From the NCBI RefSeq assembly GCF_001545035.1, contig NZ_FCOJ02000014.1, forward strand, positions 1 through 64,000: a DNA stretch of 64,000 bases. The letters run 5' to 3'. Of the stretch, positions 26,661 to 39,065 are shown piece by piece. This DNA comes from Caballeronia glebae. GTDB taxonomy: Bacteria > Pseudomonadota > Gammaproteobacteria > Burkholderiales > Burkholderiaceae. Position numbers and translations under genes: made by a program. The number at the start of each line of letters is the position of its first letter. Positions within the stretch are counted from its first letter, which is position 1. Under the pieces are notes generated by a model. It saw nothing but the letters and a program-made list of their open reading frames with translations. It was not told the DNA's origin and did no database searches.

Positions 26661-27152
26661 GCGCCCGGGGCCGGGAGTTTCGACCTCTTTCGCGCCCTTA
26701 TTCGACCTAGCGCTGCGACGGGCGCGCGTCAATAGGAGACAAACCTGACCCTGAAACCTACATGACGCCGAAGCCCTGATGGAATAAGGCTTTGCGGGAT
26801 GTTTCCCATCCTGTGGGTCGCATGCCTACCACATGGGCATTGCATTTTTGACACAAACGCGCGGCGATCGTCATTTTTCTTTGGCGACCATAACGTAATT
26901 TGTTAAATTGGTAACGAAAGTACCAAAACGAAGTACGCAAAAAGTAGTTTTACTTCAAAAAGTCCAAAAGAAACTGAGGAACGACACCGATCGACGGATC
27001 GGCGTCAGGTTCGCGCCCACGACGTGCGAATCGTCACTAGCACCACAGCCCGCGCGTGTCCTTCCTCTGAAAACAATTTTCGGTTGGGTGCGCTCGCATC
27101 GAACCACACAGCAGCACTTGGGTTCTATTTCTTGACAGGGTTGGAGGAGATG
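26661..27152. other. Upstream region of the first porin, 492 bp
   Basis: The stretch 26880-26970 is AT-rich and holds a porin promoter and an AGTAGTTTTACT dyad. It aligns by eye with the region upstream of the second porin (28470-28545). No gene seen. Confidence 0.6.
26942..26958 (+). promoter_or_regulatory. Imperfect HexR-like dyad upstream of porin 1
   Basis: AAGTAGTTTTACTTCAA matches 13 of 17 positions of the palindrome between zwf and gtsA, counted by hand. It lies downstream of a TTGTTA/TACCAA promoter-like pair starting near 26900. The TF assignment is an inference. Confidence 0.35.
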
Positions 27153-28301
27153 ATGAAGAAAGCTTTGCTCGCGTCGGCAGCACTGCTGGCGTTCAGCGCG
27201 GGGGCGTACGCTCAAAGCAGCGTCACGCTATATGGCCGCCTGGACGCGGGGCTCGAATACATGAACGGTGTGCCGACCGGTCCGGCCGGCGCGCCTGCCA
27301 CCGGTAGTTCGCACCGCTTCAAGGCGGAAAGCGGCGACTGGGGCACGAGCTTGTGGGGTTTGAAGGGCGTCGAAGATCTCGGCGGCGGTTATCGCGCCGT
27401 GTTCCAGTTGGAAGGCAGCTTCAACACCATGACCGGTCAAGGCCCGGGCGGCGGCGGTCTCTTCAATCGTTGGGCAACGGTCGGTATCGCCAACAATCAG
27501 TTCGGTACCCTGTTGCTGGGTCGCGAGCTCTTCATTGCGAACGGCGTGTGGGACTTCGATCCGTTCGGCCAGTCGAACTGGTCGTCGGCATCGCTGGTCC
27601 GTGGCCGCAACTGGCCGCAGTCGAGCAACAACATTTCGTACCAGTCGCCGAAGTTCGCTGGCCTCGACTTCTACGGTCAGTACTCGCTGTCGAACGCGAC
27701 GAACTGGAATGGTAACGGCACGACGCCGCAAGGCCGCGAGGCTGGCGCGTACGTCACATACACGACGCCGCTCTTCCAGATCCGCGGTATGTACGACGAA
27801 ATCCGCAACCCGGCAAACGGCACGCTGGGCGGCGCGTACAACCCGATCGACGGCGGCAACGGCGGCAACGGCGCCTACGCCTATTCGCGTGAATACACGG
27901 CGATGTTCAACGTGTTCCTCGGCCAGTTCAAGATCCAGGGTGCTTACCAGGCGATTCGCAGTTCGGGCATGACGGGCCAGTTGCCCGGCCAGCCGACCAC
28001 GATCGACCACGAGTGGGGCGGCGTGACGTGGCAAGCAACGCCGGCAGCGGCGCTGATCGCTGCGGTCTACCACTCGAACGGCAACAACGGCGCGGGTAAC
28101 GCGACCATTTACACGGCTGGCGGTTCGTACAACCTGTCCAAGCGCACCCTGCTCGACTTGCAGGTCGCGACGGTGCAGAACAGCAAGACGGCGAACTATG
28201 GCCTGAACGCCAACAACTTCGGTACGGCTGCCTCGACGGACAACCCGTTCCAGGGTCACAGCCAGACCGGCGTGTACGCAGGTATCCAGCACTCGTTCTA
28301 A
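27153..28301 (+). CDS. Gram-negative general porin (copy 1)
   Basis: This encodes 382 residues: a signal peptide (1-21, LLAFSAGAYAQ) and a 16-strand porin of the betaproteobacterial OpcP/Porin_4 type. It begins SSVTLYGRLDAGLEYM and ends with the aromatic outer-membrane sorting residue in GVYAGIQHSF. Blocks such as HRFKAESGDWGTSLWGLKGVEDLGGG and YREY-type alternating strands are typical. It forms passive channels for small solutes in the outer membrane. Two ATGs are adjacent; the second has the better five-base spacing from GGAGG. The next gene is a closely similar copy of identical length. Confidence 0.95.
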   Translation: MKKALLASAALLAFSAGAYAQSSVTLYGRLDAGLEYMNGVPTGPAGAPATGSSHRFKAESGDWGTSLWGLKGVEDLGGGYRAVFQLEGSFNTMTGQGPGGGGLFNRWATVGIANNQFGTLLLGRELFIANGVWDFDPFGQSNWSSASLVRGRNWPQSSNNISYQSPKFAGLDFYGQYSLSNATNWNGNGTTPQGREAGAYVTYTTPLFQIRGMYDEIRNPANGTLGGAYNPIDGGNGGNGAYAYSREYTAMFNVFLGQFKIQGAYQAIRSSGMTGQLPGQPTTIDHEWGGVTWQATPAAALIAAVYHSNGNNGAGNATIYTAGGSYNLSKRTLLDLQVATVQNSKTANYGLNANNFGTAASTDNPFQGHSQTGVYAGIQHSF

Positions 28302-28363
28302 TCGACGGGTCTGACCGAAGAGTTTTTTTAGAAGGTTTTCACGCTGCTGCGAGAGGCGCGTAT

Positions 28364-28399
28364 CGGTGCGGTGCCCGAAAGGGTATCGCACCGTTTTTT
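28364..28399 (+). terminator. Porin 1 terminator
   Basis: CGGTGCG and CGCACCG close a stem extended by TGCCC/GGGTA with a GAAA loop, followed by six T. Confidence 0.85.
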
Positions 28400-28479
28400 A
28401 TTTGAGCGCGACGATTCAAGGCACCGACGCTCGACATGACGAACACGGTTTCGGACGCGTTTCAGCTCACGCACGATAT

Positions 28480-28507
28480 TTGTCAAATCGACAACTAAAA
28501 CTACAAT
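28480..28507 (+). promoter_or_regulatory. Predicted sigma-70 promoter of porin 2
   Basis: TTGTCA and TACAAT are separated by 16 bp. The layout matches the upstream region of porin 1 and resembles the -10 of the gts promoter. Confidence 0.5.
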
Positions 28508-28522
28508 AACGCGCTTCTAACA

Positions 28523-28539
28523 AAGTAGTTCTACTCCAC
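28523..28539 (+). promoter_or_regulatory. Imperfect HexR-like dyad upstream of porin 2
   Basis: The core AGTAG-TT-CTACT is a perfect inverted repeat starting 17 bp after the predicted -10 box, where a repressor would act. It matches 11 of 17 positions of the zwf-gtsA palindrome by hand count. Confidence 0.35.
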
Positions 28540-28696
28540 AATTCCTCCCGCATTCAGGAACGGCGCGGATCGCCGCATCATCGCAATGCTTCGTCATCCG
28601 CACGTTTCTTCGACAGCCGCGTTCGGTTCGATGCCTTCGCATCGAGCCCGGCAACAATCACAGATGCACTTTTTTGACAGGGTTTTGGAGGGGATG

Positions 28697-29845
28697 ATGA
28701 AGAAGGTTTTGCTCGCGTCGGCGGCACTATTGGCGTTCGGCGCAGCGGCGCATGCACAAAGCAGCGTGACGCTGTTCGGCCGTCTGGACGCGGGACTCGA
28801 ATACATGAGCGGGGTGCCGACGGGCACCGGTCCGAACGGCGCCGCGACCGGCAGCACGCATCGCTTCAGAGCCGAAAGCGGCGACTGGGGCACGAGTCTG
28901 TGGGGCCTGAAGGGTGTCGAGGATCTGGGCGGCGGCAACCGGGCCGTGTTCCACCTGGAAGGCAGCTTCAACACGATGAATGGACAGGGACCGGGCAACA
29001 ACGGCCTCTTCAATCGCTGGGCGACCGTCGGTGTCGAAAACGACAAGTTCGGTACCTTTCTGCTGGGCCGTGAGCTCTTCATCTCGAACGGCGTGTGGGA
29101 CTTCGATCCGTTCGGCCAGTCGAACTGGTCGTCGGCGTCCCTCGTGCGCGGCCGTAACTGGCCGCAGTCGAGCAACAACATTTCGTACCAGTCGCCGAAG
29201 GCCGCGGGCTTCGACTTCTACGGCCAGTACGCGCTTTCCAACGCGACGAGCTGGAACGGCAACGGCAGCACCGCCCAAGGCCGCGAGGCAGGCGCACAGA
29301 TCACCTACACGGCGCCCTACTTCCAGGTACGCGGCATCTACGACGAGATACGCAATCCGAACGACGGCACGCTTGGCGGCGCTTACGTTCCGGTGAACAA
29401 GGCGAACGGCAACGGCGCCTACGCCTACTCGCGCGAATACACGGCGATGTTCAACGTGTTCCTCGGGCAGTTCAAGCTTCAGGGCGGCTATCAGGCCATT
29501 CGGACGGCCGGCATGGCGAACCTGCTGCCGGGCCAGCCGAGCACGCTCGATCACGAATGGGGCGGCGTGACGTGGCAGGCGACGCCGGCAGCCGCGCTGA
29601 TCGGCGCGGTGTATCACGTGAACGGCAACAACGGCGCGGGCAATGCGACCATCTACTCGGTCGGTGGTTCGTACAACCTGTCCAAGCGCACCCTGCTCGA
29701 CTTGCAGGTCGCCACCGTGCGCAACAGCAAGAGCGCGAACTACGGCCTGAACGCCAACGACGCCGGCACGTCGGCCGCGACCGACAATCCGCTCGTCGGG
29801 CGCAGTCAGTCCGGCGTGTACGCGGGCATCCAGCACTCGTTCTGA
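28697..29845 (+). CDS. Gram-negative general porin (copy 2)
   Basis: This encodes 382 residues, exactly the length of copy 1, and is alignable end to end. Most strands are identical and the differences fall mainly in predicted loops (for example GTGPNGAATGSTHRF, PVNKANGNGAYAY). Signal peptide ends AAHAQ; the last residue is Phe in IQHSF. The last third (SYNLSKRTLLDLQVATV) is nearly identical, even at DNA level, to copy 1, which suggests recent duplication or gene conversion. GGAGGGG precedes two adjacent ATGs; I use the second. Confidence 0.95.
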   Translation: MKKVLLASAALLAFGAAAHAQSSVTLFGRLDAGLEYMSGVPTGTGPNGAATGSTHRFRAESGDWGTSLWGLKGVEDLGGGNRAVFHLEGSFNTMNGQGPGNNGLFNRWATVGVENDKFGTFLLGRELFISNGVWDFDPFGQSNWSSASLVRGRNWPQSSNNISYQSPKAAGFDFYGQYALSNATSWNGNGSTAQGREAGAQITYTAPYFQVRGIYDEIRNPNDGTLGGAYVPVNKANGNGAYAYSREYTAMFNVFLGQFKLQGGYQAIRTAGMANLLPGQPSTLDHEWGGVTWQATPAAALIGAVYHVNGNNGAGNATIYSVGGSYNLSKRTLLDLQVATVRNSKSANYGLNANDAGTSAATDNPLVGRSQSGVYAGIQHSF

Positions 29846-29930: not shown

Positions 29931-31841
29931 TCAGTCCCGCGCCATCCCCGCTGCGCCGTGGCTCAGCCAGTCGAGCACGGCGGCGGCGTCATCGTCGCCC
30001 GATTGACGCGCCTTCGCGACCGTCTCGCTGATCTTCGCGCCCGGCTTCGGCGCGGCACGGCGAATCGCGACGCCGACCGCGAGAATGTCGATGATCACGA
30101 GATGGAGAATGCGCGAGATCATCGAAAGCTGCGACTCGCGAATCTCGATGTGATCCGTCTCCAGCGCCACCGTCGCGCGCTTGGCGAGCGGCGTATTGCT
30201 CGACGTGATCGCTATGACCGTCGCGCCCTGCTGCATCGCCACTTCGAGCACGCGCAGAAGCTCGGGCGCCCTGCCCGACTTCGACACCGCCACGATCACG
30301 TCGCCCTTGCCGAGCAGCGCCGCAGAAGCAGCCTGCATGTACAGGTCGCCGTAAGCGATCGTCGGAATGCCGAAGCGGAAGAACTTGTAGTGCGCATCCT
30401 GCGCCACGATGTTCGAGTTTCCGAGCCCGTAAAACTCGATGCGGCGCGCGCCGTTGAGAATATCGATCGCGCGCTCGACGTTGTCGAAGTTCAGATGCTC
30501 GCGCAACTGAAGGATCGCGGACACGGTGTTGTCGAGCACCTTCGCGCCGAAATCGGTGGCCGTGTCGCCGAGATGAACCTGGCTGTGGCTCACCGGAATC
30601 GTGCCGGTCAAACCCGTCGCGAGCTTCAGCTTGAAGTCGGACAAGCCCTGGCAGCCGAGCGAGCGGCAAAAGCGGATCACGGTCGGCTGACTGACGTCGG
30701 CCTTGCGCGCGATGTCGATGATCGGATCGTTGATGATCGAGCGCGGGTGATTAAGCGCGAGATCGGCGACGCGACGCTCGGCGGGCGTCAGCGCGTCGCG
30801 CATCTGGCGAATGCGCTCGAACACCGCCGACGAGCCGCTGTTCGCGCGGTTCGACAACTGTTCCGCGAGAATCGCCGAAACGCCGAGAAACGCCGGATAT
30901 TCCGCCGTGATGATGTACGTCGGAATGCCCGCGAGATACTGCTGGAAGCGCCCTTTCGCCTCGAAGCGCTCGCGAAACGGCGACTTGTGGAACAGTTCGC
31001 CGAGCTTCAGCACGATGCCGCCGCCGATATAGATGCCGCCCAGCGCGCCCAGCGTCACCGCGATGTTGCCGGCAAACGTACCGAGGATCGCGCAGAAGCA
31101 GTTCACCGTTTCGAGCGCGAGCGGCTCGCCTTGCAGCGCGCGGTGCGTCACGTCGGCGGCGTTGAAGGTGTCGGCGACCGTCACGTCGTCGCGCTCCGCC
31201 AACGCCCGGTAGATCAACTCCAGCCCTTGCCCCGCGCACACGCGCTCGAACGACACGTGCGGAAACTTGCGGCGCGCGTAGCGCATGACGAGGTCTTCGC
31301 GCTCGTCGAACGGCGAGAACGTCGCGTGGCCGCCTTCGCTGCCGAGCGCGATCCAGCGGTCGTCCGCCGGAATCAGGCCGGAAACGCCGAGACCCGTGCC
31401 CGGACCGAGCAGACCGATCACGCTGTTCTGCCGCCGCGAGCCGCCGCCGACCTGTTCGCGCTGCGCGTCGGTGAGGCCGGGCAGCGCCATCGCGAGCGCC
31501 GTGAAGTCGTTCACGACGAGCAGCGTGTCGAAGCCGAGCGCGCGGCGCGTCGCCTCGATCGAGAAGCTCCAGTCGTGATTGGTCATCTTCACGTGATCGC
31601 CGTCGACCGGATTCGCGATCGCGATCGCCGCATGATTGACGCGGCCGACCTTCGTGTCCTTCAGATATTGCTGCATCACCTCCGCGATGCCGGGGTAATC
31701 GGCCCCCGGATAGACGCGGATCTGCCCGATCTCGCCGGATGCGGTCTCCAGCGCGAAGCGCGCATTCGTGCCGCCGATGTCGGCCAGAAGCCGCGGTCCG
31801 TCGGCGTGCTGAGTCGCTGTCTTATGCACACCAGTAGACAT
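29931..31841 (-). CDS. glk: Glucokinase fused to RpiR/HexR transcriptional regulator
   Basis: This encodes 636 residues in two parts. Residues about 15-335 are a glucokinase ([14 protein letters not shown] phosphate loop, [25 protein letters not shown]), which phosphorylates glucose. Residues about 345-425 form an RpiR-type helix-turn-helix ([32 protein letters not shown]). A SIS sugar-phosphate domain (about 465-600; [22 protein letters not shown]) follows, as in HexR, which senses KDPG. This fusion is known in Burkholderia. It overlaps pgl by 20 bp at the end of a zwf-pgl-glk operon, so the regulator is made with the enzymes it likely controls. Confidence 0.95.
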
Positions 31842-32532
31842 CGAGCTTCACTCCTTCAGCGTGGGCCAGCGTCGAGATGGCGTTCTTTTGCGGCGCGGCG
31901 AGCGCCGCGTTCAGTACGTCGAGTTTCGTTTGCCCGGCGATGAACAGATACAGTTGCCCGATCTGCCTGAGCGCCGACATCGACAGGCTCACGCGCGCAT
32001 GCGGCGCCGCGCCCGGGTGCACGGAGATGAAGCGGTCCGGCGTGGAAATGGCGAATTCCCATTCGGGCGAGTCGGCGAAGATCGAGGCCGTATGGCCGTC
32101 CTCGCCCATGCCGAGCACGGCCACGTCCGGCAGACGGCGGCGCGGGTCGGCATTCAATTCGGCGATGTGCGTTTCCAGCGGCTTGCCGGTATCGACGAGC
32201 GGCAGGAAGTACGCCGACGCCGCCGCGTTCTGCAGCAGCGTGTCGCGCGCGAACTGCGCGTTGCTCGCCGGGTCGGTCTCGGGCACCCAGCGGTCGTCGA
32301 CGAGCGTCACGTCGATATGCGCCCAGTCGAGCGGCTCGCGCGAGAGCGACTGCAAGAACGGTTTCGGACTCGTGCCGCCCGACACCGCCAGCGTGGCGTG
32401 TGCGGTTTGTCCCTCGGCATCGGCCGATGCCGCGCCTCTCGCCGCGAGGGACGCTTTCAGTGCGTCGCTCACGGCGTTCGCCAGCGCGTTCGAGTGGGCG
32501 CGCGAATCGTCGAAAGTATGAAGCTCGATCAC
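31822..32532 (-). CDS. pgl: 6-phosphogluconolactonase
   Basis: This encodes 236 residues, normal for Pgl (DevB/SOL family). Conserved blocks are [33 protein letters not shown] and the catalytic-region [19 protein letters not shown]. It hydrolyses 6-phosphogluconolactone between Zwf and the Entner-Doudoroff or pentose-phosphate steps. It starts 128 bp after the zwf stop and overlaps glk-hexR, so all three genes form one minus-strand operon. Confidence 0.95.
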
Positions 32533-32660: not shown

Positions 32661-34121
32661 TCAATTCTCTTCTTCCAGCCAGCACGTGCCCGCCTGCGCG
32701 AGCATCGCGCTCGACGCGGCCGGTCCCCACGTGCCCGCCGCATACGGCTTCGGCTTGTTCGTCGCCGACGACCAGGCGTTCAGAATCGGCTCGACCCAGC
32801 GCCATGCCGCCTCCTGCTCGTCGCGCCGCACGAAGAGCGCGAGGCGGCCGCGAATCACATCGAGCAGAAGCCGCTGATACGCTTCCATCTGTCCTTCCTT
32901 GAAGAACTGATCGAACGCGAGATCCAGATGCACGCTCGCGAGGTTCATGCCCTCGCCGGGCTGCTTCGCCAGGCAGTAGAGGCGAATCGACTCGTTGGGC
33001 TGCAACCGGATCACGAGACGGTTCGCGCCCGCGCGCAATGCGTTCGCGCCGAGCGCCGAATGCGGCACCGCGCGAAAGTTCACGACGATTTCCGCGACGC
33101 GGTCCGCGAGCCGCTTGCCCGTGCGCAGGAAAAACGGCACGCCCGCCCAGCGCCAGTTCTCGATCTCCACCTTCAGCGCGACGAAGGTTTCCGTCGTGCT
33201 GTCGGGCCGCACGCCCGGCTCGGTCGCATACGCCGGCACCGCCGTGCCGCGAATCACACCCGCATGATATTGCCCGCGCACCGCGACGCGGCTGATGTCG
33301 CGCTCGTCGATGGGCTTGAGCGCGCGCAGCACGCGCAGCTTCTCGTCGCGCACGGAGTCGGAGTCCATGGAATGCGGCGGCTCCATCGTCACGATGGAGA
33401 GCAGTTGCAGCAAGTGGTTCTGCACCATGTCGCGCAACGCGCCGGTATTGTCGTAGAAGTCGCCGCGCGCTTCCACGCCCAGTTCCTCGGCGATCGTGAT
33501 CTGAATGCTCTCGACCCACTCCCGGCGCCACAGCGGCTCGAACAGCGCATTGCCGAAGCGCAGCGCGAGCAGGTTCTGCACCGGCTCCTTGCCGAGATAG
33601 TGATCGATCCGGTAGATCTGCTCTTCGTGGAAGATTTCGCCGACGGCGTCGTTGATCGCATTCGACGACTTCAGGTCGTAGCCGAGTGGCTTTTCGAGGA
33701 CGATGCGCGCGTTCTGGTTCAGGCCGACATCGGCGAGCGCCCGGCAGATTGGCACGAACAGCGACGGCCCCGTCGCGAGATAGAAGACCCGCGTGCCGTC
33801 GAACTGCGCGAGCGCGTCGCGCAAAACGACGAAGTCCTCCGCGCGGCCCAGATCCAGCCCGACGTACTCGAAGCGTTCCAGAAAGCTGCGCCACGTGGCT
33901 TCATCGACACCGTTCTTCGATACGTGCGGCTTCACGTGATCCTCGACCCAGGCGCGGTACTCGCCTTGCTGCTTGGCCTCGCGCGCGACCGAGACGATCT
34001 TGCCCGCCGGATCGAGCATGCCCGCGCGATGCGCCTCGAACAGCGCGGGAAGAATCTTGCGCATGGAGAGATCGCCGGTGCCGCCGAAGAGTACGAAGGT
34101 GAAATTCGAGTCGCTTTGCAT
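32661..34121 (-). CDS. zwf: Glucose-6-phosphate 1-dehydrogenase
   Basis: This encodes 486 residues. The nucleotide-binding start is FVLFGGTGDLSMRKILPAL, and the active-site signature RIDHYLGKEPVQN lies near residue 175. It oxidises glucose-6-phosphate to the lactone with NAD(P)+. The start MQSDSNF is the natural N-terminus directly before the Rossmann strand; frames further upstream have no support. It heads the zwf-pgl-glk operon. A HexR-like palindrome over its predicted promoter suggests repression relieved by KDPG. Confidence 0.97.
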   Translation of the reverse strand: MQSDSNFTFVLFGGTGDLSMRKILPALFEAHRAGMLDPAGKIVSVAREAKQQGEYRAWVEDHVKPHVSKNGVDEATWRSFLERFEYVGLDLGRAEDFVVLRDALAQFDGTRVFYLATGPSLFVPICRALADVGLNQNARIVLEKPLGYDLKSSNAINDAVGEIFHEEQIYRIDHYLGKEPVQNLLALRFGNALFEPLWRREWVESIQITIAEELGVEARGDFYDNTGALRDMVQNHLLQLLSIVTMEPPHSMDSDSVRDEKLRVLRALKPIDERDISRVAVRGQYHAGVIRGTAVPAYATEPGVRPDSTTETFVALKVEIENWRWAGVPFFLRTGKRLADRVAEIVVNFRAVPHSALGANALRAGANRLVIRLQPNESIRLYCLAKQPGEGMNLASVHLDLAFDQFFKEGQMEAYQRLLLDVIRGRLALFVRRDEQEAAWRWVEPILNAWSSATNKPKPYAAGTWGPAASSAMLAQAGTCWLEEEN

Positions 34122-34214
34122 GAGTCTCTGCGTGGGTTCGAGAGCGGATGAGAGTCGAATCGGGGCACGTCGCCCGGGGACCACGAATGAGACCGTAGTC
34201 CGATAAAATTTTTT

Positions 34215-34243
34215 TTGACACTGAATTGTAGTTTAACTACAAT
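34215..34243 (+). promoter_or_regulatory. Predicted sigma-70 promoter toward gtsABCD
   Basis: A perfect TTGACA is followed by a 17-bp spacer and TACAAT. The palindrome occupies the spacer and the -10. Transcription would start near 34250, giving a leader of roughly 455 nt before gtsA. Confidence 0.7.
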
Positions 34244-34252
34244 CCAAATCAA
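34225..34252 (-). promoter_or_regulatory. Predicted sigma-70 promoter toward zwf
   Basis: On the minus strand TTGATT, 16 bp, then TACAAT. Its -10 comes from the left arm of the same palindrome that provides the -10 of the opposite promoter. The zwf leader would be about 95 nt. Confidence 0.6.
34226..34242. promoter_or_regulatory. HexR-like operator palindrome
   Basis: TTGTAGTTTAACTACAA is a perfect 17-bp dyad around a central T. It fits the TTGT...ACAA pattern of HexR operators, and a HexR-like protein is encoded in the adjacent operon. It overlaps the -10 elements of both divergent promoters, so binding would silence zwf-pgl-glk and gtsABCD together. Confidence 0.75.
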
Positions 34253-34706
34253 GAGGAAATGTCATCTACAGAAAATTAGCAAAGTCAACCAGACGACTCT
34301 GGAGACGCGCTTTCCATAGGTGATCGTTCTGAGCGCATGTTAACGGAGCGCGCGGTTTGCCGCTTTTCACGGAAAGCGCCCCTTGCGGCTCGCATGCATT
34401 CAGGCCTCGCGCCTCGCCGTCGAACGCGCCTTTCGAGGCGCCGCTCGAACGACCGGGTAAAAATCAAAAGAGGAGACAAGCCGTTGCGATTGAACCCACT
34501 CATCTCTTGAGCGCCGTGCGGCCGTATATCGGTCTGCCGGCCCGGCTCGCCGCGTCCGTCGTGATGCGCGCCTGCCGCATCCCCGCCGACACCGCCGATT
34601 TCCGGCCATCCAGTTTTGCCGTTTTTATGACCACCGCTTCTTAGCCATGCTTCTGGCCGCATCGGGAGCCAATCGTTTCTTGTCAGGTGTCTGGAGGAGA
34701 TAAACA
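34250..34706 (+). other. Long predicted 5' leader of gtsA
   Basis: About 455 nt separate the predicted start site from the gtsA ATG. It contains a compact hairpin GCGCCT-TTCG-AGGCGC at 34426-34441 without a T tract. No convincing gene is seen. A second, closer promoter cannot be excluded. Confidence 0.4.
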
Positions 34707-35960
34707 ATGAAAGTCCGTAAGCTAATGGGCGCGCTTTGCGCCGCAGGTCTTCTGTGTGGCGCGACGGCGTCGGCGGTTCAGGCTGCCGAAGCCGTTTCCG
34801 TGTTGCACTGGTGGACGTCCGGCGGCGAATCCAAGGCTGTCGGCGTGCTCAAGGACGACATGACGAAGCAGGGTTACACCTGGAAAGACTTCGCTGTCGC
34901 GGGCGGCGCGGGCGCGGCCGCGATGACCGCGCTGAAGACGCAGGTCATCTCGGGCAATGCGCCCTCGGCGGCGCAGATCAAGGGTCCGCTCATCCAGGAA
35001 TGGGCCGAGCAAGGCGTGCTGGCGCCGATCGATTCCGTCGCGGGTGACTGGAAGAAGAACCTGCCGCCGGAAATCGACAAGATCATCCACGCCGACGGCC
35101 ATTACGTCGCCGCGCCGTTCTCGGTGCATCGCGTGAACTGGCTGTATATCAACAAGGCCGCGCTGGACAAGGCCGGCGGCAAAGTGCCGGCCAACTGGAC
35201 CGAGTTCTTCCAGGTCGCGGACAAGATGAAAGCCGCGGGCATCATGCCGATCGCGATGGGCGGCCAGCCGTGGCAGGACCTGACGCTGTGGGAAGACGTC
35301 GTGCTCTCGCAAGGCGCGGACTTCTACAAGAAGGCGATCGTCGATCTCGACCAGAAGACCTTGACCTCGGAGAAGATGGTTCAGGTGTTCGACACGGTCC
35401 GCAAGATTCAGGGCTACTTCGACAACGGCCGCACGGGCCGTGACTGGAACCTCGCGACCGCGATGGTCATCAACGGCAAGGCCGGCATGCAGTTCATGGG
35501 CGACTGGGCCAAGGGCGAATTCGCCGGCGCGGGCAAGAAGGCGGGGTCGGACTACATCTGCGCGCCGGTGCCGGGCACCGAAAAGGCGTACACGTTCAAC
35601 GTCGACTCGTTCGTGTTCTTCCAGCAGAAGGGCCAGAAGACCGCGACGCCGGGCCAGCTCGCGCTCGCGAAGACCATCATGACGCCGGAGTTCCAGGAGC
35701 AGTTCAGCCTGAACAAGGGCTCGATCCCGGTCCGCCTGGGCGTGCCGATGGATAAGTTCGACGACTGCGCGAAGAAGTCCTACGCTGATGAACAGACGGC
35801 GATCAAATCGGGCGGCTACGTTCCGTCGCTCGCGCACGGCATGGCTCAGGGCGACGCCGTCGCCGGCGCGATGACCGACGTCGTGACGAAGTTCATGAAT
35901 TCGTCGCAGGATTCGAAGAGCGCGGTCGCCGCGCTCGCGAACGCCGCCAAGACGAAGTAA
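34707..35960 (+). CDS. gtsA: Glucose/mannose-type ABC binding protein
   Basis: This encodes 417 residues: a signal peptide (about 1-26, AVQAAEA) and a type 1 solute-binding fold of the sugar class (AVSVLHWWTSGGESKAVGVLKDDM). Typical sugar-binding aromatic blocks are TLWEDVVLSQG and AGMQFMGDWAKGEF. It binds sugar in the periplasm for GtsBC. Its place next to zwf, pgl and glk points to glucose, as in Pseudomonas GtsA. GGAGGAGA precedes the ATG. A stable hairpin separates it from the permease genes and probably raises its expression over theirs. Confidence 0.88.
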   Translation: MKVRKLMGALCAAGLLCGATASAVQAAEAVSVLHWWTSGGESKAVGVLKDDMTKQGYTWKDFAVAGGAGAAAMTALKTQVISGNAPSAAQIKGPLIQEWAEQGVLAPIDSVAGDWKKNLPPEIDKIIHADGHYVAAPFSVHRVNWLYINKAALDKAGGKVPANWTEFFQVADKMKAAGIMPIAMGGQPWQDLTLWEDVVLSQGADFYKKAIVDLDQKTLTSEKMVQVFDTVRKIQGYFDNGRTGRDWNLATAMVINGKAGMQFMGDWAKGEFAGAGKKAGSDYICAPVPGTEKAYTFNVDSFVFFQQKGQKTATPGQLALAKTIMTPEFQEQFSLNKGSIPVRLGVPMDKFDDCAKKSYADEQTAIKSGGYVPSLAHGMAQGDAVAGAMTDVVTKFMNSSQDSKSAVAALANAAKTK

Positions 35961-36130: not shown

Positions 36131-37069
36131 GTGACTGCCTCCATCGCCGCGGACAAGAAACCGCAAAATCCGCCCCGTCGCGCCTCGCCGACGGCGGCGC
36201 TCGCCGATCGCCTGATCCCGAAGCTGGTGCTCGCTCCCAGCGTCTTGATCGCGCTCATTTTCGTGTACGGCTTCATCGCCATTACCGGGTATCTGTCACT
36301 CTCCGAATCGCGGCTCATGCCGCGCTACGATTTCGCGGGCTTCGACCGCTATAAACAGCTTTTCGCCAACGACGTCTGGTGGACTTCCGCCGCCAACCTC
36401 GGCTGGTTCGGCATTCCGTTCATCGGGATTTGCGTGTTCCTCGGCCTCTTCCTTGCGATCCTTCTCGACCAGAAGATCCGCAACGAAGGCGCACTGCGCG
36501 CGATCTTCCTTTACCCGATGGCGCTCTCGTTCATCGTGACCGGCACGGCCTGGCAGTGGATTCTGAACCCCAGCCTCGGTCTGGAGAAAGTGTTTCATGA
36601 CTGGGGCTGGACGAGCTTCTCGTTCAACTGGCTGGGCGATCCGGACAAGGCGATTTTCTGCGTCGTGATCGCGGCCGTATGGCAATCGACAGGCTTCGTG
36701 ATGGCGCTGTTCCTGGCCGGTCTGCGTGGCGTGGACGCAGAAATCTTCAAGGCCGCGCAGATGGACGGCGCGGGCTTACCGACCATCTACCGCAAGATCG
36801 TGATTCCGAGCATGCGGCCGGTGTTCTTCTCGGTGCTGCTGATTCTCTGCCACATCACGATCAAGACCTTCGACCTCGTCGTCGCGTTGACGGCGGGCGG
36901 TCCGGGCACGTCGTCGTCGCTGCCGGCCATCTTCATGTACACGTTCTCATTCAACCGCGGGCAACTGGGCGTGGGCGCCGCATCGTCGATGATGATGCTC
37001 GCCACGGTCGTCGCGGTGCTCGTGCCGCTCATGTATCTCGAATCGAGGAGCACCCGCAATGCAGCCTAA
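36131..37069 (+). CDS. gtsB: Sugar ABC permease (MalF type)
   Basis: This encodes 312 residues with six predicted helices. After a cytoplasmic tail, LVLAPSVLIALIFVYGFIAITGYLSL is the first helix. The EAA loop is EIFKAAQMDGAGLPTIYRKIVIPSMRPVF, and the end matches sugar permeases (AASSMMMLATVVAVLVPLMYLES). It pairs with GtsC. A GTG start follows AGGAG by seven bases; the gene overlaps gtsC by 11 bp, so they are translationally coupled. Confidence 0.9.
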   Translation: MTASIAADKKPQNPPRRASPTAALADRLIPKLVLAPSVLIALIFVYGFIAITGYLSLSESRLMPRYDFAGFDRYKQLFANDVWWTSAANLGWFGIPFIGICVFLGLFLAILLDQKIRNEGALRAIFLYPMALSFIVTGTAWQWILNPSLGLEKVFHDWGWTSFSFNWLGDPDKAIFCVVIAAVWQSTGFVMALFLAGLRGVDAEIFKAAQMDGAGLPTIYRKIVIPSMRPVFFSVLLILCHITIKTFDLVVALTAGGPGTSSSLPAIFMYTFSFNRGQLGVGAASSMMMLATVVAVLVPLMYLESRSTRNAA

Positions 37070-37916
37070 GATGACTTTGAGCCGCGCCGTCATCTACGCG
37101 GTGCTGATTCTCTTCGCGCTCTACTTCCTGTTCCCGATCTACGTGATGCTGTCGACGTCGTTCAAGGATCTCGACCAGCTTCGCACGGGCAACCTGCTCA
37201 CGCCGCCCACGCACTGGACGTTCGCGCCGTGGGTGAAAGCCTGGCAGGAAGCGTGCACGGGCGTGCGCTGCGACGGCATGGAGCCGTTCTTCATGAACTC
37301 CGTGCGCATGGTGATTCCGGCCGTGCTGATCTCGTCGTTCGTCGGCGCGTTCAACGGCTATGTGCTCACGCACTGGCGCTTTCGCGGCGCGGACGGCCTG
37401 TTCACGATGCTGCTCGTCGGCTGCTTCATCCCGTTTCAGGCGATCCTGCTGCCGATGGCGCGTTTGCAAGGCTTTCTCGGCCTTTCGAACACGACGACCG
37501 GCCTCGTGATGGTCCACGTGATCTACGGCATCGCGTTCACGACGATGTTCTTCCGCAACTTCTACGTGAGCATTCCGGCGGAGCTCGTGAAGGCGGCGCG
37601 CATCGACGGCGCGGGCTTCTTCACCATCTTCACGAAGATCCTGCTGCCGGTGTCGCTGCCGATTTTCATGGTGTGTCTGATCTGGCAATTCACGCAGATC
37701 TGGAACGACTTCCTGTTCGGTATCGTGTTTTCGGGCGTGGATTCCATGCCGATCACGGTGGCGCTGAACAACCTCGTGAATACATCGACGGGCGTGAAGG
37801 AATACAACGTCGACATGGCGGGCGCGATTATCGCCGCATTGCCGACGATCCTCGTCTACATGATCGCGGGACGTTATTTCGTGCGCGGGCTGACGGCCGG
37901 CGCGGTGAAGGGTTAA
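37059..37916 (+). CDS. gtsC: Sugar ABC permease (MalG type)
   Basis: This encodes 285 residues with six predicted helices. The MalG-type features are YFLFPIYVMLSTSFKDLDQL and the EAA loop ELVKAARIDGAGFFTIFTKILLPVSLPIFMV, and it ends AGRYFVRGLTAGAVKG as these permeases usually do. It overlaps the gtsB end by 11 bp and is followed after 30 bp by the ATPase gene. Together they form the membrane core of the predicted glucose importer. Confidence 0.92.
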   Translation: MQPKMTLSRAVIYAVLILFALYFLFPIYVMLSTSFKDLDQLRTGNLLTPPTHWTFAPWVKAWQEACTGVRCDGMEPFFMNSVRMVIPAVLISSFVGAFNGYVLTHWRFRGADGLFTMLLVGCFIPFQAILLPMARLQGFLGLSNTTTGLVMVHVIYGIAFTTMFFRNFYVSIPAELVKAARIDGAGFFTIFTKILLPVSLPIFMVCLIWQFTQIWNDFLFGIVFSGVDSMPITVALNNLVNTSTGVKEYNVDMAGAIIAALPTILVYMIAGRYFVRGLTAGAVKG

Positions 37917-37946: not shown

Positions 37947-39065
37947 ATGGCAAGCCTTTCCATCCGTGACGTGTACAAGACCTACCCGAACGGGGTGCCG
38001 GTTCTAAAGGGCGTCAACATCGATATCGAGGACGGTCAGTTCCTGATCCTGGTCGGCGGCTCGGGCTGCGGCAAGTCGACGCTGCTGAACATGATCGCCG
38101 GGCTGGAGGACGTGACGCAGGGCGACATCATGATCGACGGCAAGACGGTGAACAACCTGTCGCCGAAGGATCGCGATATCGCGATGGTGTTCCAGTCCTA
38201 CGCGCTCTACCCTTCGATGAGCGTGCGCGACAACATCTCGTTCGGCCTCAATATCCGCAAGGTGCCGAAGGACGAGCAGAAGAAAATCGTCGATCGCGTG
38301 TCGGAGACCTTGCAGATCGGTCATCTGCTGGACCGCAAGCCGGGGCAACTGTCGGGCGGTCAGCGTCAGCGCGTCGCGATGGGCCGCGCGCTGGCCCGCG
38401 ATCCCGTCATGTTCCTGTTCGACGAGCCGCTTTCGAATCTCGACGCGAAGCTGCGCATCGAGATGCGCTCGGAGATCAAGCTGCTGCATCAGCGCCTCGG
38501 CACGACGATCGTCTACGTGACGCACGATCAGATCGAGGCGATGACGCTCGGCGATCGCATCGCGGTAATGAAGGACGGCATCGTGCAGCAGTTCGGCGCG
38601 CCGCAGGACATTTACGACTCGCCGTCGAATCTTTTCGTCGCGGGCTTCATTGGCGCGCCGCCGATGAACTTCATCACCGGCAAGCTCGTCGAGTCGGGCT
38701 CGGGCGTGGGGTTGCAGCTCGATACGGGCATCGCGCAGAAGGTGCTGAATCTGCCGTTCGATGCGGGAAGTCTGCGCAACAAGGTCGGTCAGGACGTGAT
38801 TGTCGGTCTGCGTCCGGAGCGCATCACCGATTCGCGCAGCGCGCACGATGTATCGGATGCGAGCCTGCAGCCGGTCGATGTGCGCGTCGACGTGATCGAG
38901 CCGACCGGTCCGGACACGCTCGTGTTCGCGCAGGTGAACGGCAAGCGCATCGTGTCGCGTGTGCATCCCGCGTCGAATCCGAAACCGCTGTCGAACATGA
39001 CGCTGCTCTTCGATGTTTCGAAGGCCGTGCTGTTCGATCCGCAGACGGAGGAGCGGCTCGCCTGA
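37947..39065 (+). CDS. gtsD: Sugar ABC ATPase (MalK/UgpC type)
   Basis: This encodes 372 residues. Residues 1-235 are the ATPase: Walker A GGSGCGKST, Q-loop VFQSYALYPSMSVRDN, signature LSGGQRQRVAMGRAL, Walker B VMFLFDEPLSNLDAKLR, and switch His in TIVYVTHDQIEAMTLGDR. The C-terminal 130 residues form the OB-fold regulatory domain of MalK/UgpC proteins (VGLRPERI, VDVIEPTGPDTLVFAQVNGKRI). It energises GtsBC, and such subunits can serve several sugar importers. A terminator follows the stop by 34 bp. Confidence 0.93.
   Translation: MASLSIRDVYKTYPNGVPVLKGVNIDIEDGQFLILVGGSGCGKSTLLNMIAGLEDVTQGDIMIDGKTVNNLSPKDRDIAMVFQSYALYPSMSVRDNISFGLNIRKVPKDEQKKIVDRVSETLQIGHLLDRKPGQLSGGQRQRVAMGRALARDPVMFLFDEPLSNLDAKLRIEMRSEIKLLHQRLGTTIVYVTHDQIEAMTLGDRIAVMKDGIVQQFGAPQDIYDSPSNLFVAGFIGAPPMNFITGKLVESGSGVGLQLDTGIAQKVLNLPFDAGSLRNKVGQDVIVGLRPERITDSRSAHDVSDASLQPVDVRVDVIEPTGPDTLVFAQVNGKRIVSRVHPASNPKPLSNMTLLFDVSKAVLFDPQTEERLA

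Follow-up and report, generated by a model that had tools for sequence, protein, structure and literature searches.

The window, by which we mean the whole 64,000-nucleotide stretch of Caballeronia glebae DNA that was analyzed, carries two divergent operons. On the minus strand lies zwf, for glucose-6-phosphate dehydrogenase (32661..34121, ATG at 34121; Pfam, TIGR00871), whose product shares up to 97% identity with its counterparts in named Caballeronia species, followed by pgl, for 6-phosphogluconolactonase (31822..32532, minus strand; Pfam PF01182, name assigned from context). The terminal gene of this zwf-pgl operon (29931..31841, minus strand) encodes a glucokinase joined to HTH_6 and SIS domains (Pfam), and the original prediction that the adjoining operon ends with a glucokinase-HexR fusion is thus borne out. 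The protein scores 1226.5 bits against the NCBIfam equivalog NF010701 (bifunctional transcriptional regulator/glucokinase; cut-off 920), and 243.8 against the stand-alone HexR subfamily model NF008451, which is under the cut-off of 296; both the HTH_6 and the SIS domain are present in its C-terminal, HexR part. On the plus strand, gtsA (34707..35960, ATG at 34707) encodes a periplasmic sugar-binding protein whose top PDB match is 5dvf, a sugar-ABC binding protein (E 9.4e-131), and which also matches the glucose-binding protein 2b3b (E 1.6e-27). Two permease genes (36131-37069 and 37059-37916) and an ATPase gene (37947-39065) on the same strand complete its ABC transporter (Pfam); the plus-strand operon encodes an ABC sugar importer. 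Just past the end of glk-hexR, two tandem, similar plus-strand open reading frames (ORFs) of 425 and 419 aa (27024-29845) presumably resemble Burkholderia-type porins.

Between zwf and gtsA lies a perfect dyad, TTGTAGTTTAACTACAA (34226..34242), which is a candidate operator of the HexR type. Its 8-bp arms flank a central T, and extend to 9 bp when A34225 and T34243 are included (19 bp in all). Reading and recomputing this 17-mer showed that it does give TACAAT on both strands, as had been claimed, and the two -35 elements lie where they had been placed. Toward gts, the predicted sigma70-type core promoter (34215..34243, plus strand) consists of TTGACA (34215-34220), a 17-bp spacer and TACAAT (34238-34243), the last being the right arm plus T34243; toward zwf (34225..34252, minus strand), it consists of TTGATT (34252-34247), a 16-bp spacer and TACAAT (34230-34225), formed by the left arm and A34225. 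Starts placed 7 bp past each -10 box would fall at about 34250 (plus) and 34218 (minus), some 32 bp apart. A promoter scan of 34050-34750 returned three sites, against 0.1 in shuffled sequences: the gts-ward one (11/12), the zwf-ward one (9/12), and a plus-strand match at 34680-34708 (9/12), which overlaps the gtsA start codon and therefore cannot be the gtsA promoter.

The dyad is the sole site in the window within three mismatches of TTGTAGTTNAACTACAA (mean in shuffles, 0.02). When TGTARTWWWAYTACA was sought in the same genome with at most one mismatch, three places were found, and the only exact match is the zwf-gtsA dyad; the two others both lie inside ORFs (648 and 658 aa; contig C82), and were rejected as further HexR targets. 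Symmetry alone was also rejected as evidence, as the window contains about as many perfect 17-bp odd palindromes as chance predicts (4 observed, 3.8 expected). Since such palindromes are not rare, the weight of the argument is carried by conservation and by the match to promoter and HexR patterns. Likewise, a palindrome laid over one -10 box automatically yields its mirror image, so that the second TACAAT is not independent evidence; the only independent evidence for a second promoter is the second -35 element, of which the last three bases vary. The reading that we consider probable is a repressor-gated two-way promoter, at which the HexR part of the fusion would act through the shared dyad.

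Conservation was examined in 161 locus rows, comprising the window, 80 named loci obtained by protein search (Caballeronia, Paraburkholderia, Trinickia, and records labelled Burkholderia) and 80 others. They fall into 95 gts-type rows with HexR (93 after removal of two duplicates), 35 edd-type rows with HexR, 7 with HexR and neither partner, and 24 without an adjacent hexR; these relatives share ancestry, and locus counts are not counts of independent events. A search of the orthologous zwf gaps, suggested as a check on the original prediction, found the identical 17-mer in all 80 named loci, centered 64-146 bp ahead of the aligned start of zwf (on its upstream side). In 79 of the 80, gtsA is divergent and hexR lies downstream; in the remaining one (L074), the contig breaks off too early. 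Among the 95 gts-type loci, the right TACAAT is present in 95 and the left one in 94; taking the best -35 hexamer among spacings of 16-18 bp, TTGACA stands at 17 bp toward gts in 94, and the zwf-ward -35 begins with TTG in 94 (93 at 16 bp, one at 17 bp). One of the 95, L135 from another family, has an imperfect dyad (12/14) and is outside the profile of the 94 loci with a perfect dyad. In that profile, every base of 34212-34243 is the same in all loci, and conservation of the zwf-ward -35 (34247-34252) is 95-100%. The constraint is thus unequal: none of the 94 loci departs from the gts-ward promoter, and the zwf-ward -35 is kept mainly as TTG. The prediction of a HexR-type bidirectional switch stands insofar as promoter elements are conserved on both sides and the operator tracks the fusion (see below), but constraint on its two halves differs.

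In an 81-row alignment, little else in the zwf-gtsA gap is conserved, except for two blocks in the gts leader. The leader itself (34244..34706, plus strand) is very long, some 457 nt separating the gtsA ATG (34707) from the predicted start, and its conserved blocks lie at 34452-34541 and 34660-34706. The former contains a Shine-Dalgarno-like AAAAGAGGAGAC, then a TTG-started frame of 8 codons (LHPEPLIS, LRFDTLIS and similar) ending in TGA, as well as two predicted hairpins (alifold -8.07 versus -1.89, sd 1.65, in 30 column shuffles); it is possibly a leader peptide or an attenuator. An Rfam search of 34100-34800 gave a single match, far under the gathering score of its family, and none above threshold. 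Upstream of the gts-ward -35, GTAGTCCGATAAAA and a T-tract (34195..34214, plus strand) form a possible auxiliary HexR half-site and UP-like region for gts. GTAG is 95% and the next T 89% conserved in the 94 gts-type loci; GTAG is found at a similar distance in some edd-type loci and is absent in others, and GTAGT is missing at the dyad of genome G230 and degenerate in loci L112-L119 of genus g4. GTAGT lies about 33 bp, or roughly three helical turns, from the dyad and may be a further HexR half-site.

The divergent gene is not always gts. In 35 fetched HexR-linked loci, including 10 from genus g4 of the same family, it is edd; the operator-on-promoter module is therefore not tied to gts. Of these 35, all but three score 12 or 13 out of 14 in the arms (32 loci), and the three score 8-10; the set includes two loci outside g4 (L154, L155) in which edd is about 2 kb off and no dyad is found. 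An edd-ward -35 of the form TTGNNN stands at 17 bp in 25 of the 35 (TTGACA in 11 of these), and a -10 of the form TACNNT in 27. As many relatives have edd opposite zwf, the proposed switch is not confined to the pairing of import with catabolism. Genus g114 offers a further comparison: its four HexR-positive loci, which are not mutually independent, have no intact gts within about 3 kb upstream, and their gts-ward -35 reads TCGACG (L094, L175), TTAACA at 16 bp (L095) or TTGGCA (L097), with the right -10 still TACAAT. Such decay is as expected if the gts-ward -35 serves the divergent operon.

It could be argued that only the gts- or edd-ward promoter is real, the zwf-ward TACAAT being a side effect of the operator's symmetry, with transcription of zwf starting elsewhere. 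The higher scan score and the invariance of the gts-ward promoter agree with this, as does the left -35 outside g4, where TTGNNN at 16 bp is found in only 2 of 25 edd-type HexR loci. In genome G230, moreover, the left box is TACATC although glk-hexR lies on that side, and the two-way geometry is therefore lost there. We nevertheless hold this single-promoter explanation to be unlikely, because a TTG-type left -35 is kept in 94 of the 95 gts-type loci and in all 10 fetched g4 loci (TTGACA at 17 bp on the right, TTGNNN at 16 bp on the left) despite changes at the other bases, and because the scan of 34050-34750 found no minus-strand promoter other than the zwf-ward one. All but one of the 95 gts-type loci thus show the full two-way geometry, as do the 10 fetched loci of a single edd-type genus, but it is rare elsewhere, which makes it mainly a feature of this clade.

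The distribution of the dyad was then compared with that of the fusion in 150 genomes of the family, which are related, so that co-occurrences are not independent events. With fusion-type HexR defined by at least 60% identity to the HexR part of the fusion (all 78 such matches lie in open frames of at least 625 aa), the exact core TGTAGTTNAACTACA is present in 76 of 78 genomes with it and 1 of 72 without. The core is changed by one base in the two fusion genomes that lack it, and the single non-fusion case is a 1.2-Mb genome without a HexR match. Among the 77 genomes with the exact core, the dyad could be placed in 75, and lies at most 700 bp upstream of zwf in 73. In the two others (G212, G230), it lies away from zwf, between gts and glk-hexR, with TTGACA-17-TACAAT toward gts; the zwf-side dyads of these genomes are broken at L100 (12/14, right arm) and gone at L104 (10/14). 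G212 has two dyads, near opposite ends of the gts/glk-hexR gap (L170:2518 and L170:3978; 13 and 12 matching arm bases out of 14). In the same genome, a second gts adjoins zwf (L100). Of the 14 arm bases, 10, 13, 13 and 11 are retained in four reduced genomes without a HexR match at E <=1e-20 (L101-L103, L105). At L105, which belongs to a 1.2-Mb genome without a HexR match, the dyad reads TATAGTTTAACTATAAT, with the consensus TATAAT on one strand, as if the operator had held the C of TACAAT. The candidate HexR-type operator therefore co-occurs with the fusion gene, as a site of the HexR regulon would.

Which HexR reads the dyad is a separate matter. The genome has six HTH_6 matches, and the closest paralogue of the HexR part of the fusion, HexR2 (43-44% identity), is encoded on contig C144, divergent from edd (L172), an arrangement found in all 25 HexR2 loci fetched, which are part of those listed. 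This HexR/RccR-like paralogue might read the dyad, instead of or alongside the fusion: it shares 43% identity with the HexR part, the dyad core has the form of the 15-bp RccR site TGTAGTAAAACTACA of P. fluorescens (PMC5489143), and in the genus of the window (six loci: L172, L181-L185) the top-scoring sites between edd and HexR2 reach 10/12 for both operator types, and thus do not discriminate between the two HexRs. Across all 25 gaps, however, a fusion-type TGTAGTNNNACTACA site at 11/12 or better occurs in none and a TGTAGANNNTCTACA site in 12. The recognition helices differ as well. In 92 fusion-type matches the helix is uniform, with an Arg-x-x-Arg pair, and the residue after RFC, the second Arg of the pair, is Arg in all 92, but among the matches of HexR2 in only 3 of 25. 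The first Arg was demanded by the search pattern, and one of 93 fusion-type loci gave no match. Arg-54 and Arg-57 of P. putida HexR have been proposed as DNA contacts (PMC5902321). Finally, genomes G274, G242 and G230 carry the dyad with the fusion-type HexR as the only one at E <=1e-50. Together, the operator and helix differences favor the fusion as the reader of the dyad, with cross-binding possible, and we regard a reading by HexR2 as improbable. Far less credible still is a pair of ordinary directional promoters around a conserved AT-rich block with no part for HexR: the T-tract and TTGACA are indeed generic promoter features, but the dyad tracks the fusion gene across genomes, adjoins it where that gene is not near zwf, and a full set of 14 arm bases is found in none of the 24 fetched zwf loci that lack a neighboring hexR.

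The edd/HexR2 gap of the same genome (L172:2427-2726) has candidate sites of its own, ATGTAGTATTTGTACAA and TAGTAGAAAAACTACAT, which are partly asymmetric. A genome-wide search with the edd-type operator pattern gave no signal (six one-mismatch places, against 17 for a reversed control). As edd is divergent from HexR2 and has its own candidate sites, control of the Entner-Doudoroff pathway may be split in this clade, with the fused HexR assigned to zwf/gts and the second one to edd.

We therefore return to the proposed two-way promoter under repressor control. In the absence of glucose, the HexR portion of the fusion would occupy the dyad as a dimer and cover both -10 boxes; apo-HexR bound there would block RNA polymerase in both directions and keep both operons shut. 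Once phosphorylated glucose flows into the Entner-Doudoroff pathway, KDPG would release HexR, as we infer from the Pseudomonas protein, and polymerase could fire either toward gts or toward zwf-pgl-glk/hexR. Because the promoter cores overlap, each -35 lying in the start region of the other, the geometry suggests one polymerase at a time. With the repressor gene last in the zwf operon, the loop would be autoregulated; the lack of autoregulation of the P. fluorescens HexR promoter (PMC5489143) counts against such a loop. In a much bolder version, which we offer as speculation and think improbable, one fused protein would phosphorylate glucose and gate the two-way promoter for the importer, the catabolic enzymes and itself, exclusive polymerase binding would set the ratio of import to catabolism, the kinase domain may relay the glucose/ATP state to operator release, and the module would be portable, with edd or gts on its far side.

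If correct, the preferred reading would provide a natural case in which one repressor binding event gates both directions of a two-way promoter; according to the abstract of PMC12825309, nothing is known on the control of bidirectional promoters. The loci also point to an exchange of the far-side gene (edd or gts) while operator and promoter stayed in place, and relatives that have or lack the fusion, and carry gts or edd, could readily serve as natural controls.

Single repressor sites over overlapping divergent promoters are familiar from bioA/bioBFCD with BirA and from argE/argCBH, where the regulators are other than HexR. The bidirectional promoters of E. coli (Warman et al. 2026, PMC12825309) are likewise pseudo-symmetric and let polymerase bind either way, one at a time, as would be the case here. 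They share one -10, however, with starts most often 18, and also 10 or 23, bp apart (PMC12825309), whereas here two separate -10 hexamers lie 7 bp apart, the predicted starts are about 32 bp from each other, and a repressor-type dyad spans both -10 boxes.

The HexR of Pseudomonas represses zwf, edd and gap-1 until KDPG releases it (PMC5902321, PMC5489143). The regulator proposed here resembles it in belonging to the RpiR family, in its putative control of zwf and in its half-sites TTGT/ACAA; the arms match, but the Pseudomonas operators have the form TTGT-N7/8-ACAA, compared with an N9 spacer at our dyad (PMC5902321). Those operators lie at +30/+1 (zwf), +16/+41 (edd) and -6/-18 (gap-1), and not across two -10 boxes, and Pseudomonas hexR stands on its own, divergent from zwf, whereas here it is fused to glucokinase at the end of the zwf operon. 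A table in PMC5902321 gives edd, gap-1 and zwf as HexR targets, and operons under HexR also hold transport genes (PMC5489143). Gammaproteobacterial HexR regulons include zwf-pgl with edd, eda and glk (Leyn et al. 2011, RegPrecise, via PMC5343134 and PMC3840689), and extend to glucose transport in Shewanellaceae and Vibrionales (PMC5343134). The glucokinase-HexR fusion has itself been reported in Paraburkholderia xenovorans LB400 (PMC12568896). Titles and abstracts on HexR, zwf, gtsA or edd in Burkholderia and relatives, a coverage that excludes the main HexR regulon paper and most subscription papers, gave no account of this promoter, and the main text of a B. cenocepacia dRNA-seq paper (PMC4603805) gave no glucose entry and none for the five gene numbers tried. 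The fusion, and HexR control of zwf and of glucose transport, are thus known already; what may be new is their conserved combination at this promoter.
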